64,000 nucleotides of DNA, from the NCBI RefSeq assembly GCF_002217395.1, contig NZ_MUHD01000002.1:96374-160373 (forward strand), in the 5' to 3' direction. The stretch comes from Flavobacterium plurextorum (GTDB taxonomy: Bacteria; Bacteroidota; Bacteroidia; Flavobacteriales; Flavobacteriaceae). The position numbers were made by a program, and so were the translations under genes. This document shows, piece after piece, positions 6,165-33,405 of the stretch (its first letter is position 1; each line of letters begins with the position of its first letter). The notes beneath the pieces were generated by a model. The model saw nothing but the letters and a program-made list of their open reading frames with translations, was not told the DNA's origin and ran no database searches.

Positions 6165-7118
6165 TTATTTAAAGAAACTGTCAACGAATTCATATTTATT
6201 AAAGACTTGTAAGTCTTCAATTCCCTCGCCAACACCAATATATTTTACAGGAATTTGAAACTGGTCTGAGATACCAATCACAACACCGCCTTTTGCTGTT
6301 CCGTCTAATTTTGTAACTGCTAACGATGTTACTTCTGTTGCAGCAGTAAACTGCTTAGCTTGTTCAAAAGCGTTTTGACCTGTTGAACCATCTAAAACTA
6401 AAAGCACATCATGCGGCGCATCTTCAACCACTTTCTGCATAACACGTTTCACTTTAGAAAGTTCGTTCATCAAATTAACTTTATTGTGTAAACGTCCAGC
6501 AGTATCAATAATTACAACATCTGCATTTTGAGCTACAGCCGATTGCAAAGTATCAAAAGCTACAGAAGCAGGATCACTTCCCATATTTTGTCTTACGATT
6601 GGAACATCAACACGATCAGCCCAAACTTGTAACTGGTCTATTGCAGCAGCACGAAATGTATCTGCAGCACCTAAAACCACTTTGTAACCCGCCTTTTTAA
6701 ACTGATAAGCTAATTTACCTATTGTAGTAGTTTTTCCAACACCGTTTACTCCAACCACCATTAAAACGTATGGTTTTTTATCTTTTGGAATATCAAACTC
6801 TGTTCCTTCGCCTGTATTGGTTTCAGATAATAAACCACCTATTTCATCACGAAGAATTTGATTTAATTCGGCTGTACCTAAATATTTATCTTCGGCAACG
6901 CGTTTTTCAATTCTTTCGATGATTTTCAATGTAGTATTTACACCAACGTCTGAAGCTACCAAAACTTCTTCAAGATTATCTAAAACGTCGTCATCGACTT
7001 TCGATTTTCCTGCAACAGCTTTGCTTAACTTAGAGAAAAAAGTAGTTTTCGTTTTTTCAAGACCTTTATCTAAAGTCTCTTTTTTTTCGGTAGAGAATAA
7101 TTTTTTAAAAAAACTCAT
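6165..7118 (-). CDS. ftsY: Signal recognition particle receptor FtsY
   Basis: 317 aa, the short form without the long acidic A domain of E. coli. The NG domain carries the G1 loop GVNGVGKTT (123-131), DTFRAAA, DTAGR and TKLDGTAKGG. FtsY binds Ffh-ribosome complexes at the inner membrane and hands nascent membrane proteins to SecYEG, with GTP hydrolysis by both partners. It follows the ribosomal gene cluster on the same strand, a common arrangement in Flavobacteriia, but a repeat and a terminator separate them here. Confidence 0.96.
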   Translation of the reverse strand: MSFFKKLFSTEKKETLDKGLEKTKTTFFSKLSKAVAGKSKVDDDVLDNLEEVLVASDVGVNTTLKIIERIEKRVAEDKYLGTAELNQILRDEIGGLLSETNTGEGTEFDIPKDKKPYVLMVVGVNGVGKTTTIGKLAYQFKKAGYKVVLGAADTFRAAAIDQLQVWADRVDVPIVRQNMGSDPASVAFDTLQSAVAQNADVVIIDTAGRLHNKVNLMNELSKVKRVMQKVVEDAPHDVLLVLDGSTGQNAFEQAKQFTAATEVTSLAVTKLDGTAKGGVVIGISDQFQIPVKYIGVGEGIEDLQVFNKYEFVDSFFK

Positions 7119-7203
7119 TTTTTATTTATTGTTAGTTGTAGATTGTTTCTTTAGGGCTTTAAAACAATCCTAATGCTTATAGAATACCTTTTGCTTTTAA
7201 TTT

Positions 7204-9382: not shown

Positions 9383-9550
9383 ATAAATATTATTTTCACT
9401 TGCCGTACTGCAAGTTGTTATTAGAAAGTAGATTGCTGTTTTTGCTTTATTTATAAGGAAATAAAAACTGGATTCTTTTCACAACAAATACCAGATGTGT
9501 GTTAAACGAAGTTTTTAGAAACTAAAGAATAACCTCAACAATAGAAGAAA

Positions 9551-9594
9551 TCCTTAATTCTTATTCTTTTCTTAAAAAAAATAAGAATTAAGGA
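9551..9594. terminator. AT-rich hairpin after the Hpt gene
   Basis: TCCTTAATTCTTATT (9551-9565) and AATAAGAATTAAGGA (9580-9594) are perfect 15-bp complements, 10 bases past the Hpt stop. Stem is AT-rich, so termination is likely but not certain. Confidence 0.6.
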
Positions 9595-9604
9595 AGTTTA
9601 AACC

Positions 9605-9949
9605 TTACAAATCAAAATCTTTCTTGATTTCTTTGATTGCATCTTTAACTTGTACTTTTATACTTTTAAAAGTCTCTATAATATCTTTTTTCTTCCCCTC
9701 GGCTTTTGTCCAAGCTTCTACTTGCAGAATCTCTTCAAAAGCAACATTTAACCCCATTAAATCTAATGTAGGCTTTATTTTATGAGCATAAGAATAGGCA
9801 TATTTGTGATCCTTTTTCTTAATTCCTTCTTTAATCTGTTTTAAATCTTCAGGGACTTCTGTAACAAATAAATTAAGAATTTCGTTTACAAATTCAGGAT
9901 CGTTATCTGAAAGCGCGTACACTTTCGAAAGGTTATACTTTAAGGCCAT
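9605..9949 (-). CDS. Stand-alone histidine phosphotransfer (Hpt) protein
   Basis: 114 aa, all helical in character. The phospho-acceptor motif is YSYAHKIKPTLDLMG with His56 as the site. Hpt proteins carry phosphate between hybrid histidine kinases and response regulators. No kinase or receiver gene is adjacent, so partners are encoded elsewhere. The start overlaps the stop of the FAH gene (TAATG), so they are translationally coupled although the functions look unrelated. A 15-bp hairpin follows. Confidence 0.85.
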   Translation of the reverse strand: MALKYNLSKVYALSDNDPEFVNEILNLFVTEVPEDLKQIKEGIKKKDHKYAYSYAHKIKPTLDLMGLNVAFEEILQVEAWTKAEGKKKDIIETFKSIKVQVKDAIKEIKKDFDL

Positions 9950-29688: not shown

Positions 29689-30141
29689 TTGAAAAAATTT
29701 AAAATAAGTTCTTTCCAAAACGAATTAAATGTATTTTTGCATTCGAAACAACGAAATCAAGCCTTGAAGAATATCTTCATCATATTACTTTCCGGTATAC
29801 TTTTACTGCCATCTTTTGGCAATTTCTTTGTTTATACTAATTTCAAACTAAATCAGGAAGAAATTGTAAAAACCATTTGTGTACAGCGTAAACAAGTTTT
29901 CAATACCTGTAACGGTCGATGCGAGCTTCAAAAAAGCTTGAAAAAATACGCCGATAACGAGAAAAAAATGGAAAACAATCTTAAAGAAAAATCAGAGATT
30001 GTTTATATTCAAAATACAATTACAGCACCTTACAACTTAATTGTGCCTATTACAACTAAAACACAAAACTTTTCTGTTTTAGACAAAAAACCTGTTTCTG
30101 TTTCGAACACTTCATTTCGTCCGCCATCCTATTTTATATAA
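29689..30141 (+). CDS. Small tri-cysteine membrane protein of the copper island
   Basis: 150 aa from a TTG start at 29689, following a nine-T run; an in-frame stop lies at 29656 and there is no ATG before residue 100, so TTG is the only good start. One helix (about 28-48) is followed by a periplasmic part with Cys64, Cys74 and Cys78 in CVQRKQVFNTCNGRCEL and a Lys-rich coil. Proteins of this shape regularly stand before MbnP/peroxidase genes in Flavobacteriia. Metal binding is inferred from the cysteines and neighbours only. Confidence 0.6.
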   Translation: MKKFKISSFQNELNVFLHSKQRNQALKNIFIILLSGILLLPSFGNFFVYTNFKLNQEEIVKTICVQRKQVFNTCNGRCELQKSLKKYADNEKKMENNLKEKSEIVYIQNTITAPYNLIVPITTKTQNFSVLDKKPVSVSNTSFRPPSYFI

Positions 30142-30247
30142 TTTTTAAATCTACTTTCAATTTTACAATTGAAATCATTTTTATTGCCCAAAAGCAATGA
30201 AACGTGCTTACGCACATCTCAAATTTAAATTATATAAAACTCATAAA

Positions 30248-31051
30248 ATGAAAAATACTTTATACAGAGCTTTAGCTATTGTAACACTATCTATATCTTT
30301 ATTTTCTTGTTCAAGCGACGATAACAACGAAACGATTACTGGAAACGGAAAAATCACTTTAAAATTTGACAATGCATTTGGAGCAAATGATCTAATTTTA
30401 AACACACAAGGAAACACAACTTCTAACAATGAAGTATTAAAAATCAGTCTTGTAAAATATATTGTCAGCAATGTTGTTTTTACAAAAGCTGACGGAACCA
30501 CTTTTACATACCCAAAAAGCAAAAGCTACTTTATTGCAGATGAATCTACTGCTACCGGACAACAATTTCAACTTGCTGATATTCCTGCTGGAGACTATAC
30601 AAAAGTAAAATTCGGAATTGGAGTTGATGAAGAACAATGGAAATTAGGCGCTGCTGGACAAGGTGATTTCTTAGCAAAAGCTGATGCTGCAGGAATGATG
30701 TGGTCTTGGGCTGCTGGATATAAGTTTTTAGCTCTTGAAGGCACATTTACTTCACCAACAGTTACAACTGCCACTCCATTTATGATTCACACCGGAAAAA
30801 CGGGAACAGATTATAACTATACTGAAGTGACTCTGGATCTTCCAACAAAAGCTTTAGTTCGTACGAACATTACTCCTGCCGTACACATTATCACAGATCT
30901 TTCGAAAATTATCGACGGGAAAAACAAAATCAAACTTTCTGACAACAACATGGGCGGAATGGGCGCGATGATTATGGGCGGTGCTAATTTGCCATTAATT
31001 ACTCAAAACATCTCTGCAATGTTTCGAGTAGATCACGTACATAACGACTAA
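30248..31051 (+). CDS. MbnP-family copper-binding lipoprotein
   Basis: 267 aa from the ATG at 30248, which gives a clean lipoprotein signal (LFSC, Cys21); the earlier ATG at 30197 adds 17 non-signal residues. The core GNGKITLKFDNAFGANDLI, VKFGIGVDEEQW and the C-terminal pattern match the MbnP family (periplasmic copper protein of methanobactin operons). Trp131, Trp152 and Trp154 are candidates for the kynurenine made by MbnH in known systems. His181, His213, a Met-rich MGGMGAMIMGG and a terminal HVH could bind copper. Own domain only; no methanobactin genes seen. Confidence 0.82.
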   Translation: MKNTLYRALAIVTLSISLFSCSSDDNNETITGNGKITLKFDNAFGANDLILNTQGNTTSNNEVLKISLVKYIVSNVVFTKADGTTFTYPKSKSYFIADESTATGQQFQLADIPAGDYTKVKFGIGVDEEQWKLGAAGQGDFLAKADAAGMMWSWAAGYKFLALEGTFTSPTVTTATPFMIHTGKTGTDYNYTEVTLDLPTKALVRTNITPAVHIITDLSKIIDGKNKIKLSDNNMGGMGAMIMGGANLPLITQNISAMFRVDHVHND

Positions 31052-31089
31052 ACTTATTTTCAGGAGCACAAAAGTTAGGGTTTAACAGA

Positions 31090-31187
31090 CCACTCGTCCC
31101 GCCATCCGTTAAATCTTTCACGGCATCCCGATCCCGAAGCTTCGGGCCGGGACCGCCGTAAAAGGATATCACTTCTGTCAGGGCTAA
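31090..31187 (-). repeat. Dispersed element, copy 3
   Basis: Minus strand reads TAGCCCTGACAGAAGTGATA, a G/C-rich stem with palindrome CCCGAAGCTTCGGG (31133-31146), then GGCGGGACGAGTG. It fills the 171-bp gap between the MbnP and peroxidase genes. Confidence 0.7.
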
Positions 31188-31222
31188 AAAACATCTTTTG
31201 TGCTTCTTAAAACCCAAAAATT

Positions 31223-32263
31223 ATGTTGAAAACAAAATATTTTCTTTATCTGATCATTCCATTACTATGGAGCTGTTCAGATCAAGATGACGAATATATA
31301 AATGTGCCGCTAGAATTTAAAGTTCCATCAAACTTTCCAGATCTTGCTTATAATATTGCTTTAAATCCACCAACAGAAAAAGGATTTGAACTAGGAAAAA
31401 AATTATTTTATGATGGTCGTTTAGCGTCTGACGGAGTAGTTTCCTGCGGTTTTTGTCACATACAAGCAAATGCCTTTACGCATCACGGACATACTGTAAG
31501 TCATGGTGTAGACAATGCTCAGGGAACACGAAACACACCTTCAATTCAAAATCTAGGTTTCCAAACTACTTTTATGTATGATGGTGCAGCTGATCATTTA
31601 GATTTACAGCCGTTGATTCCGCTTAAAAGTGTGATCGAAATGAATGGTGATTTGAATGCGATTCTAAAAATGATGAAAGCCGATAAAGAATATCAAAAAC
31701 TATTTGGGCAGGCTTTTGATGATGGTGCCATTACAACCGAAAATATGTTGAAAGCCCTTTCGCAATTTATGGTTATGGTGGTTTCATCAAATTCAAAATT
31801 TGACAAATACAGACGAAATGAATCTGGCGGAACTTTGACTTCTAATGAATTGGCAGGTTACGACTTATTCAAATCAAAATGTGCTTCATGTCATGCAACA
31901 GATTTACAGACTGACAATTCATTCCGAAACAATGGCTTAGCTGTAAATCCTGCCGTTAATGATGTTGGACGTTATAGAGTAACAGAACTGACAAATGATT
32001 ATTACAAATTTAAAGTACCGAGTTTACGAAATGTAGAAGTTTCTGCTCCTTATATGCATGATGGACGATTTGGAACTCTTGAAGGCGTTTTGGATCATTA
32101 TGCGAGCGGAATTGAAGATTCTCCAACTTTAGATCCAATTTTAAAACAAAACGGAAAATTTGGAATTGCACTTTCTGCAACTGAAAAAACACAAATAATA
32201 GCTTTTCTGAAAACGTTAACTGACAATCAATATTTAACAGATAAACGTTTATCAGAATATTAA
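31223..32263 (+). CDS. Dihaem cytochrome c peroxidase, MbnH/MauG-like
   Basis: 346 aa. Lipobox LWSC with Cys18. Two haem c sites: CGFCH (75-79) and CASCH (220-224). Between them lie the features of the CcpA/MauG superfamily, with GTRNTPSIQNLGF and VPSLRNVEVSAPYMHDGRF after the second haem. Next to an MbnP gene this composition points to MbnH, which oxidises a Trp of MbnP to kynurenine. A normal peroxidase role cannot be excluded. Periplasmic, lipid-anchored. Confidence 0.88.
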   Translation: MLKTKYFLYLIIPLLWSCSDQDDEYINVPLEFKVPSNFPDLAYNIALNPPTEKGFELGKKLFYDGRLASDGVVSCGFCHIQANAFTHHGHTVSHGVDNAQGTRNTPSIQNLGFQTTFMYDGAADHLDLQPLIPLKSVIEMNGDLNAILKMMKADKEYQKLFGQAFDDGAITTENMLKALSQFMVMVVSSNSKFDKYRRNESGGTLTSNELAGYDLFKSKCASCHATDLQTDNSFRNNGLAVNPAVNDVGRYRVTELTNDYYKFKVPSLRNVEVSAPYMHDGRFGTLEGVLDHYASGIEDSPTLDPILKQNGKFGIALSATEKTQIIAFLKTLTDNQYLTDKRLSEY

Positions 32264-32287
32264 AAAATATTTCCATAAAATCAGGTG

Positions 32288-32436
32288 CCCTAGCCCCGAT
32301 TGCAGTGGAAAGCCTTTTTGAAAAAAGATAAAATTTTTCTTGAGTTTATGAAGCGACCAACGGAAGCTTTATAAACTTTTAGAAAAATGAGATTTTGATA
32401 AAAGTTTGAAACGAAAAGCGGGATAAGCTCCTAAAA
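32288..32436 (+). repeat. Dispersed element, copy 4
   Basis: CTAGCCCCGATTGCAGTGG, then an AT-rich part with stem AGTTTATGAAGC / GAAGCTTTATAAACT, then GCGGGATAAGCTCC. It sits in the gap between the peroxidase and barrel genes, in the opposite orientation to copy 3. Confidence 0.7.
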
Positions 32437-32445
32437 ACAATAAAA

Positions 32446-33405
32446 ATGAAAAAATTAATAATAGTTTGCACTTTCTTGGTTGGATTTTCAGCCTTTAGTT
32501 CTACTGTAAAAGACAGTATTTCGACATTCACCTTTCAGCGTTTGGCACTTATGGAAGATTTTGACTGTGATGCCTGCGGTTGTTCTGCAAGCGGAGGAAG
32601 TATGGGTTTTAGCTCAATGTTGAATAACAATTTTGTTGGACTTCGATATTTTAAACAAAGCTATACAAGCCGTGACGGTATTTTTGCCAATTCGCCTTGG
32701 ATAGACGAAAATTTCAATACTGTTCAAGCCTGGGCAAGGATTCCGATTTCAGAGAAAATTCAGATTTCCGCTTTAATTCCCTATCATTTTCACGAACGAG
32801 CATTAACTGCCGGAACGCAAAGTATTGAAGGTTTAGGCGACATGACTGTTATGGGACTTTACACCGTTTATGAAACTCAAAAAGACAGTACGGTTTTTAC
32901 TCATAAACTAAATCTTGGTGGTGGAGTTAAGATTCCGACTGGACAATTTAAAGAGATTAATAATTTAGGAACTATAAATCAGAGTTTTCAATTAGGAACA
33001 GGAAGCTGGGATTTTCCTTTGGTTTCAGAATATGTTATCAAACATAAAAATCTAGGCCTGAACACTACTTTAAATTATATTTTTAAAACTGAAAACAGTA
33101 AAAATTACCAATACGGCGACCAGTTTAATTATGCTGGTACTTTTTTCTATTTGTTTGATGCAAATAAATTTCAAATTGTTCCACAAGCAGGACTTGCAGG
33201 CGAAGTTTACCAAACTAATAAACAACACGGACTTGATTTACCAAATACGGCAGGAGATATTTTGTTTGGAAAATTTGGCATTGAAGCCGGAAAAGATAAA
33301 TTTTCGATTGGCGTAAATGCCATGTTACCGATTAATCAAAATTTATCGAATGGTAATATGGAGGCGAATTATCGCTGGAGTATTAATTTGAATTATACTT
33401 TGTAA
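32446..33405 (+). CDS. Outer membrane barrel with N-terminal CDACGC motif
   Basis: 319 aa. Signal peptide to about residue 19, then LMEDFDCDACGCSASGG, with Cys41, Cys44 and Cys46 in a thin metal-binding-type cluster. After this come alternating barrel strands, with ARIPISEKIQISALIPYHF and FGIEAGKDKFSIGV, ending in WSINLNYTL, as in outer membrane proteins of the transporter/phenol-pathway style. Last gene of the copper island. Metal passage or sensing at the outer membrane is an inference. Confidence 0.7.
   Translation: MKKLIIVCTFLVGFSAFSSTVKDSISTFTFQRLALMEDFDCDACGCSASGGSMGFSSMLNNNFVGLRYFKQSYTSRDGIFANSPWIDENFNTVQAWARIPISEKIQISALIPYHFHERALTAGTQSIEGLGDMTVMGLYTVYETQKDSTVFTHKLNLGGGVKIPTGQFKEINNLGTINQSFQLGTGSWDFPLVSEYVIKHKNLGLNTTLNYIFKTENSKNYQYGDQFNYAGTFFYLFDANKFQIVPQAGLAGEVYQTNKQHGLDLPNTAGDILFGKFGIEAGKDKFSIGVNAMLPINQNLSNGNMEANYRWSINLNYTL

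Follow-up and report, generated by a model that had tools for sequence, protein, structure and literature searches.

Two copper-responsive leader peptides are among the closest described counterparts of the system considered here. CruR of Bordetella pertussis, a DUF2946 protein, is exported, carries a CXXC motif and has a C-terminal RAPP three residues from its end, with 45 residues from CXXC to RAPP, a spacing probed by mutation; its arrest permits operon expression, and copper relieves the arrest (PMC9426467). The operons that CruR heads are copper-uptake operons with TonB receptors, OprC-type ones included, and PepSY_TM, SCO, PCuAC and MbnPH-like genes (PMC9426467). CutF of Rhodobacter capsulatus is a sensor of extracytoplasmic copper that opens an RNA stem masking the start of the following gene, with copper as the inducer, and CutF-like proteins number 5,334 in total, Bacteroidota accounting for 40% after normalization and 19% of the raw count (PMC9973294). 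A further survey finds that leaders of the RAPP/RGPP type precede copper-related genes in various lineages, groups such as Bacteroidota being an exception, and that leaders of TonB-related genes are widespread in Gram-negatives (PMC12992588). Here we describe four genes from a window of 64,000 nucleotides (nt) of Flavobacterium plurextorum (NZ_MUHD01000002.1, 96,374-160,373; genome of 5.06 Mb; all coordinates are window positions), in which secA is followed on one strand by genes for a small protein with three Cys (tri-Cys), an MbnP-like lipoprotein, an MbnH-like diheme enzyme and an outer-membrane barrel (29689..33405; Table 1). We propose, with moderate confidence, that this set, whose order is conserved in Flavobacterium, is headed by a peptide that senses copper and acts as a leader: it is predicted to stall the ribosome and thereby to control translation of likely copper-capture genes for MbnP, MbnH and an outer-membrane channel.

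The genes form a unit. Among 61 loci (L005-L065) fetched by MbnP similarity, 59 have the order tri-Cys, MbnP, MbnH, barrel on one strand, and because it is kept although the flanking genes vary between groups of loci, the order is beyond chance. The sequence-only reading had placed four genes here as an MbnP/MbnH-like copper island; four same-strand open reading frames (ORFs) do lie at the positions given, and the genes stay together in relatives. The exceptions are one locus with the MbnP-MbnH pair twice and a Hymenobacter locus (L065) without the barrel and with a divergent tri-Cys gene. The closest named matches come from F. oncorhynchi and Flavobacterium sp. YO12, with MbnP identity of 98%. 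Downstream of the barrel, 15 of the 59 loci have a second tri-Cys gene ahead of a TonB receptor (receptor identity checked for L032 alone), an arrangement of one leader per unit. One Flavobacterium locus has a second, divergent MbnP-MbnH pair inserted ahead of the barrel (L010:3446-5266).

The tri-Cys family itself varies greatly outside two short motifs. In an alignment of 32 members, many of them just 17-28% identical to the first row, the only invariant residues are I34, C39, C49, G51, C53, P120 and P121. All 127 members of a wider set have the first two Cys 9 residues apart and 63-73 residues between the last Cys and Pro-Pro (group medians of 65-66, standard deviations [sd] of 1.4-2.5), so that the CruR-type layout, both motifs at a conserved distance, is found in 127/127. 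Pro-Pro is followed by 2-4 residues in 120 of the 127 and by 1 to 11 in the others. The tail reads FHPP or FRPP in most members (FRPP in the window), and an [HRK]PP tail occurs in 39 of the 51 members that do not belong to the first set versus 0 of 514 background ORFs of at least 250 amino acids (aa). No convincing match to curated NCBIfam models was obtained for the family, and the leader's weak Pfam matches, TGF_beta among them, were judged to be chance.

Like CruR, the tri-Cys protein is small and probably exported, with a Cys motif, a C-terminal Pro-Pro and a conserved spacing, and it comes first in copper operons. It differs in having no DUF2946 match, in its C-x9-C-x-G-x-C in place of CXXC, in mostly F[RH]PP in place of RAPP, in a spacing of ~66 rather than 45 residues and in a predicted translational helix where CruR works through Rho termination. 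With CutF it shares a length of less than 150 aa, a Pro-Pro close to the C terminus, a Cys motif and a predicted RNA stem shielding the next start; the difference is that CutF switches its target on with copper. Measured by the filters for CutF-like proteins, the leader has 125 aa (<150), P120-P121 in its last 15 residues and a same-strand gene starting 106 nt beyond its stop (within 1,000 nt), and the family may already be counted among the CutF-like proteins of PMC9973294. The N terminus, hydrophobic by sequence, is a candidate signal peptide. As for 5' context, 109 of the 127 leaders have no same-strand gene in the 60 nt upstream of them, and for 14 of the 109 the whole stretch holds no upstream gene on that strand.

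The RNA between the leader and MbnP folds at -23.6 kcal/mol over 30121-30262 (z -5.46, 0/200 shuffles as good). Within it, 30132-30144, which lies shortly 3' of the Pro-Pro codons and spans the stop codon, is complementary to 30227-30239, next to the MbnP start. Across 28 Flavobacterium sequences 10 of the 13 helix pairs never vary, wobble positions and post-stop bases included; in other lineages the arms differ in sequence and are often still complementary. Strength of intergenic folding was rejected as evidence by itself, because folding is just as strong at MbnP to MbnH junctions, the one in the window holding a Flavo-1 RNA, and the RNA test retained was a permutation test of own versus swapped arms. 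With 21 dissimilar representatives of 112 junctions, own arms pair at -10.52 kcal/mol and swapped arms at -7.05 kcal/mol (sd 0.62; p <= 5e-5), and the same test gives p 0.08 both for other gene junctions (n=29) and for MbnP to MbnH junctions (n=6). The result stands at thresholds giving 13, 21 and 46 representatives, within Flavobacteriaceae loci alone (n=14, p 0.0016) and when L065 is left out (p 2.5e-4). When the leader end is blocked in the folding model, openness of the MbnP start in the window rises from 0.42 to 0.73, and blocking there beats a control block in 39/45 junctions of L005-L035 and 28/31 of L036-L065.

From these features we infer a leader acting by arrest and copper binding. 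At low copper the ribosome would stall at the Pro-Pro codons and cover the 5' arm of the helix, keeping the 3' arm open, and MbnP would be translated. Copper on the three Cys of the nascent, probably exported chain would free the stall, upon which the helix would close and uptake would stop. Of the proteins under this putative control, MbnH would oxidize Trp152 of MbnP to kynurenine, allowing Cu(I) to be held, and copper would travel inward by way of the Cys-tailed barrel.

A number of results weigh against this proposal. RAPP, the form shown to stall, is replaced by FRPP or FHPP in most members, and none of the 15 families that the 32 aligned members matched between them is DUF2946 (PF11162), which also has 0 matches in the genome itself, with 1/14 controls matched. 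The sign of the copper response is taken over by analogy from CruR, and that of CutF is the opposite. Eighteen of the 127 leaders lie <60 nt from a same-strand upstream gene, and MbnH is missing from range in 11 of 60 MbnP neighborhoods of a class-wide sample. On the RNA side, the near-invariant arms in Flavobacterium show constraint and not covariation; the arm-pairing signal weakens to p 0.007 without the three best loci and to p 0.042 at the strictest threshold, which leaves 4 representatives. Outside L005-L065, the leader-end block beats the control in 22/47 junctions, a negative result, and long-range pairs are no better represented at leader junctions (26/47) than at others (23/50). MbnP to MbnH junctions fold equally well (median z -4.67, 44 junctions), probably due to Flavo-1 RNAs; among the 110 of 118 control junctions that were folded, long-range pairs appear in 37/44 MbnP to MbnH and 7/16 MbnH to barrel junctions. 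A second locus of the same genome (L003) lacks the helix at both of its leader junctions.

The strongest rival would make the tri-Cys protein a periplasmic or membrane-anchored carrier relaying Cu(I) among MbnP, the barrel and uptake at the inner membrane, with Pro-Pro as a structural element. Its three invariant Cys and frequent copper-type neighbors would suit that role, yet little besides the Cys, the Gly and the C-terminal Pro-Pro is invariant in so divergent a family, a near-fixed tail motif a few residues ahead of the stop is unusual for carriers, and two-unit loci have a tri-Cys copy ahead of each unit. CutF was likewise first suspected of being a chaperone, until work on it showed that it acts as a leader (PMC9426467, PMC9973294). 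We regard a carrier as unlikely. The sequence-only reading, which had suggested that the tri-Cys protein could pass or take up copper, is supported in part: its MbnP-MbnH unit is conserved, and its suggested carrier is better read as a putative leader.

A sample of 149 genomes of the class Bacteroidia (thresholds of E <= 1e-8 for the barrel and E <= 1e-4 for the tri-Cys protein) gave MbnP in 104, the tri-Cys protein in 80 and the barrel in 37. Neighborhoods were fetched for 60 of 150 listed MbnP matches, skewed to high scores: 23 have both barrel and tri-Cys gene, 3 only the tri-Cys gene, 1 only the barrel and 33 neither (Fisher p 2.5e-12 for co-occurrence, uncorrected for kinship). Within 4 kb of the 37 barrels lie a tri-Cys gene in 36 cases, a listed MbnP in 28 and both in 27. 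By these counts, the closest association is that of barrel and tri-Cys gene, which MbnP often joins. Gene order varies in this sample, one version being tri-Cys, barrel, MbnP, MbnH. The sole fetched neighborhood with a barrel and no tri-Cys gene (L080) has a small Cys/His ORF ending in RAPPVS, a RAPP tail in Bacteroidia (9490-9804, minus strand), and at L126 a small Cys-rich ORF ending in WTPPKIG (6818-7195, minus strand), possibly another leader type, precedes an MbnP that has no tri-Cys gene.

Tri-Cys genes also occur apart from this cassette. Of 100 tri-Cys genes listed for the class sample, 51 have a listed MbnP or barrel close by, and 20 stretches covering 21 of the remaining 49 were fetched. 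The nine large neighbor proteins scanned there are all TonB receptors; SCO1 is present in two loci (L146, L148), MbnP in five, MbnH in one and a weak barrel match, by local models, in six, and two loci (L143, L149) show no recognizable partner of the tri-Cys gene. Near tri-Cys genes at L136 and L142, TonB receptors have N-terminal Cys-rich stretches, for example CACVGACSC at L142. The F. plurextorum genome yielded four tri-Cys copies, all at copper-type loci: one in the window, two at L003 and one at L130. L003 (6840-12796) contains a second MbnP-MbnH pair, a YtkA-domain protein and an OprC-like receptor, which the two tri-Cys genes surround; the receptor has no Pfam match, its PDB matches are solely OprC, and its CTDKM fits the CxxxM of OprC (motif from PMC8610252). 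At L130, where the helix is present, the tri-Cys gene is followed by a YtkA-domain protein and a receptor matching only OprC (3.4e-20). Downstream of the tri-Cys gene at the secA site of L131 come genes for a TonB receptor and a PepSY_TM protein, a combination also described around CrtA, a copper importer (PMC12914433).

These receptors bear on a second rival, in which the operon serves copper capture with storage or detoxification, MbnP binding excess surface Cu(I) and the barrel being an exit channel. CutF-like leaders head efflux genes too, and the target of CutF goes up when copper is present (PMC9973294); a P-type ATPase gene, recognized by eye from DKTGT and CPC, also lies past MbnH on the opposite strand at L003, beside the second MbnP-MbnH pair. 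Against this, the tri-Cys leader family heads OprC-like receptors as well, and the model OprC takes up copper (PMC8610252), and CorA and MopE are copper-repressed (PMC3912023, PMC3621798), so that we consider detoxification improbable. A cassette for another soft metal, or an MbnP-MbnH pair that makes a redox cofactor, is very improbable given the MbnP fold with its WxW and the OprC and SCO1 neighbors.

Returning to the genes that the leader would control, the MbnP-MbnH pair is, by sequence, genuine and part of the conserved unit. The product of the gene at 30248, a start fixed by M16 of the extended ORF being invariant in 62/62, was called MbnP-like in the sequence-only reading, and it matches PF20243 at 151.4 bits (curated cut-off 27) and has the MbnP fold, with a structure related to 7l6g. 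It scores 43.3 bits against the four-Cys MbnP equivalog TIGR04052 (cut-off 140), having one Cys rather than four. The diheme assignment of the third gene is likewise upheld by PF03150 (E 5.7e-49), by MbnH as the top PDB match (6e1c, E 4.8e-43) and by two CxxCH motifs; TIGR04039 is the top NCBIfam match at 215.2 bits, under its cut-off of 362.85. MbnH reportedly oxidizes the first Trp of the MbnP WxW (Manesis et al. 2021); W152 is the residue predicted to become kynurenine. Three Trp had been singled out earlier; Trp152 and Trp154 are invariant in 37/37 aligned MbnPs, and Trp131 varies. The Met-rich stretch and terminal HVH noted at the same time are both present.

WxW is kept in 59 of 62 MbnPs; one of the three without it has no MbnH nearby, and a pattern of WxW loss where MbnH is absent was not seen. 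An HxH tail occurs in 15 of 28 MbnPs with a barrel or tri-Cys gene nearby and in 0 of 34 without, and was dropped as a mark of the cassette, the tree offering only 2 independent supported contrasts and the sign test being powerless. The genome has 0 matches to MbnB (PF05114), a model that matched 2/14 controls, and 0 to MbnC (TIGR04160), a model that matched no control either. The pair resembles described MbnP/MbnH pairs (TIGR04052/TIGR04039, PF20243) in its adjacent lipoprotein and diheme genes, WxW, 7l6g fold and kinship to 6e1c; it differs in having the lipobox Cys only, without the four-Cys motif, in missing both NCBIfam equivalog cut-offs, in the terminal HxH and in two regular additional genes. 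Such pairs occur far outside methanobactin operons (PMC3621798). CorA/CorB and MopE/SACCP of methanotrophs likewise set a kynurenine-bearing surface copper protein beside a diheme enzyme gene (PMC3912023, PMC3621798), but are absent from the sequence matches obtained.

The barrel, single-copy in the genome, has no Pfam or NCBIfam match in the window; among the matches listed, 1 of 120 homologues carries PF13557, which the window protein lacks, and several sources annotate homologues as "transporter". A model built from 34 sequences (mean predicted local distance difference test [pLDDT] 76, predicted template modeling score 0.73) resembles the COG4313 channel 4rl8 (Foldseek 6.1e-10) and FapF (1.3e-9), which share the barrel fold and differ in sequence, with 12-14% identity. 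The CDACGC reported near its N terminus is there, at residues 41-46: C41, D42, C44 and G45 are invariant in 34/34 and C46 is kept in 33/34, within a segment (residues 16-54) of pLDDT < 50. Beyond Flavobacterium, C..CGC is present in only some of the barrels found in the fetched MbnP neighborhoods.

The existence of the tri-Cys ORF was read correctly at the outset; its start probably was not. In place of 29689 (150 aa), the start is most likely TTG 29764, because a promoter-like TATTTTTG lies downstream of TTG 29689 and homologues are shorter, 117 of 120 among the matches listed having 111-148 aa. TATTTTTG resembles the Bacteroidota -7 element, with the consensus TAnnTTTG. The 12-mer ATGTATTTTTGC was found again in 20 of the upstream regions of tri-Cys genes that were compared; as a shared upstream DNA motif, a search turned up only common words, mainly AT-rich or Flavobacterium-confined. 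Two Flavo-1 RNAs lie within the gene set, one antisense in the MbnP/MbnH gap and one sense in the MbnH/barrel gap, and they might change expression between its genes.

Table 1. Positions of the proposed leader, its predicted RNA elements and the genes downstream in the F. plurextorum window (MFE, minimum free energy)
Feature	Position	Strand	Basis
Promoter-like TATTTTTG	29732..29739	+	Position read from sequence
ORF of the putative tri-Cys leader (125 aa, likely start TTG; N terminus hydrophobic)	29764..30141	+	Homologue lengths, alignment
Codons of C-x9-C-x-G-x-C (C39, C49, C53)	29878..29922	+	Invariant 32/32 and 127/127
Pro-Pro codons of C-terminal F-R-P-P, proposed arrest site	30121..30126	+	P120, P121 invariant 32/32
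5' arm of long-range RNA helix, overlapping leader ORF end and stop codon	30132..30144	+	MFE fold z -5.46
Three hairpins inside long-range helix	30155..30215 (30155-30174, 30179-30202, 30204-30215)	+	Folding
3' arm of helix, ending 8 nt short of MbnP ATG	30227..30239	+	Folding
MbnP-like lipoprotein, lipobox Cys21 the sole Cys	30248..31051	+	
WxW of MbnP (W152, W154)	30701..30709	+	Invariant 37/37; aligned to WNW of 7l6g
His-Val-His at MbnP C terminus	31034..31042	+	Sequence
Flavo-1 RNA (RF01705) between MbnP and MbnH	31091..31189	-	54.8 bits, gathering 42
MbnH/MauG-like diheme enzyme, lipobox, two CxxCH (CGFCH, CASCH)	31223..32263	+	PF03150, 6e1c
Flavo-1 RNA (RF01705) between MbnH and barrel	32288..32429	+	53 bits, gathering 42
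Outer-membrane barrel, COG4313/FapF fold	32446..33405	+	Structure model, Foldseek
CDACGC of barrel (residues 41-46), disordered N-terminal tail	32566..32583	+	Alignment, model

A literature search covering part of the papers that mention MbnP found no published description of the four-gene cassette, and a copper-gene survey of the related genus Bizionia names an OprC-like receptor, the words MbnP and MbnH being absent from its text (PMC11213822). The locus would represent control of the CruR/CutF type in a new form, joined to the known MbnP-MbnH pair and to an uncharacterized Cys-tailed channel. More tentatively, we suggest a family of copper-sensing arrest peptides in Bacteroidota (C-x9-C-x-G-x-C, ~66 residues, F[HR]PP) that has no sequence relationship to CruR and may govern units for copper uptake by way of an RNA helix, opened by the ribosome, over the start of the following gene. 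The long spacing would put the Cys at or beyond the translocon, so that copper would be read outside the cytoplasm, and with one leader per unit MbnP-MbnH-channel cassettes and TonB receptors would be switched separately.

Copper acquisition and the sensing of copper lack are poorly known in Bacteroidota. If the proposal is true, one small recognizable gene marks copper-uptake units class-wide (80/149 sampled genomes), copper leaders of Bacteroidota would have escaped a survey of RAPP/RGPP tails on account of their F[HR]PP motif, MbnP-MbnH and a Cys-tailed channel would be linked to copper, and a metal-sensing member would be added to the arrest peptides.

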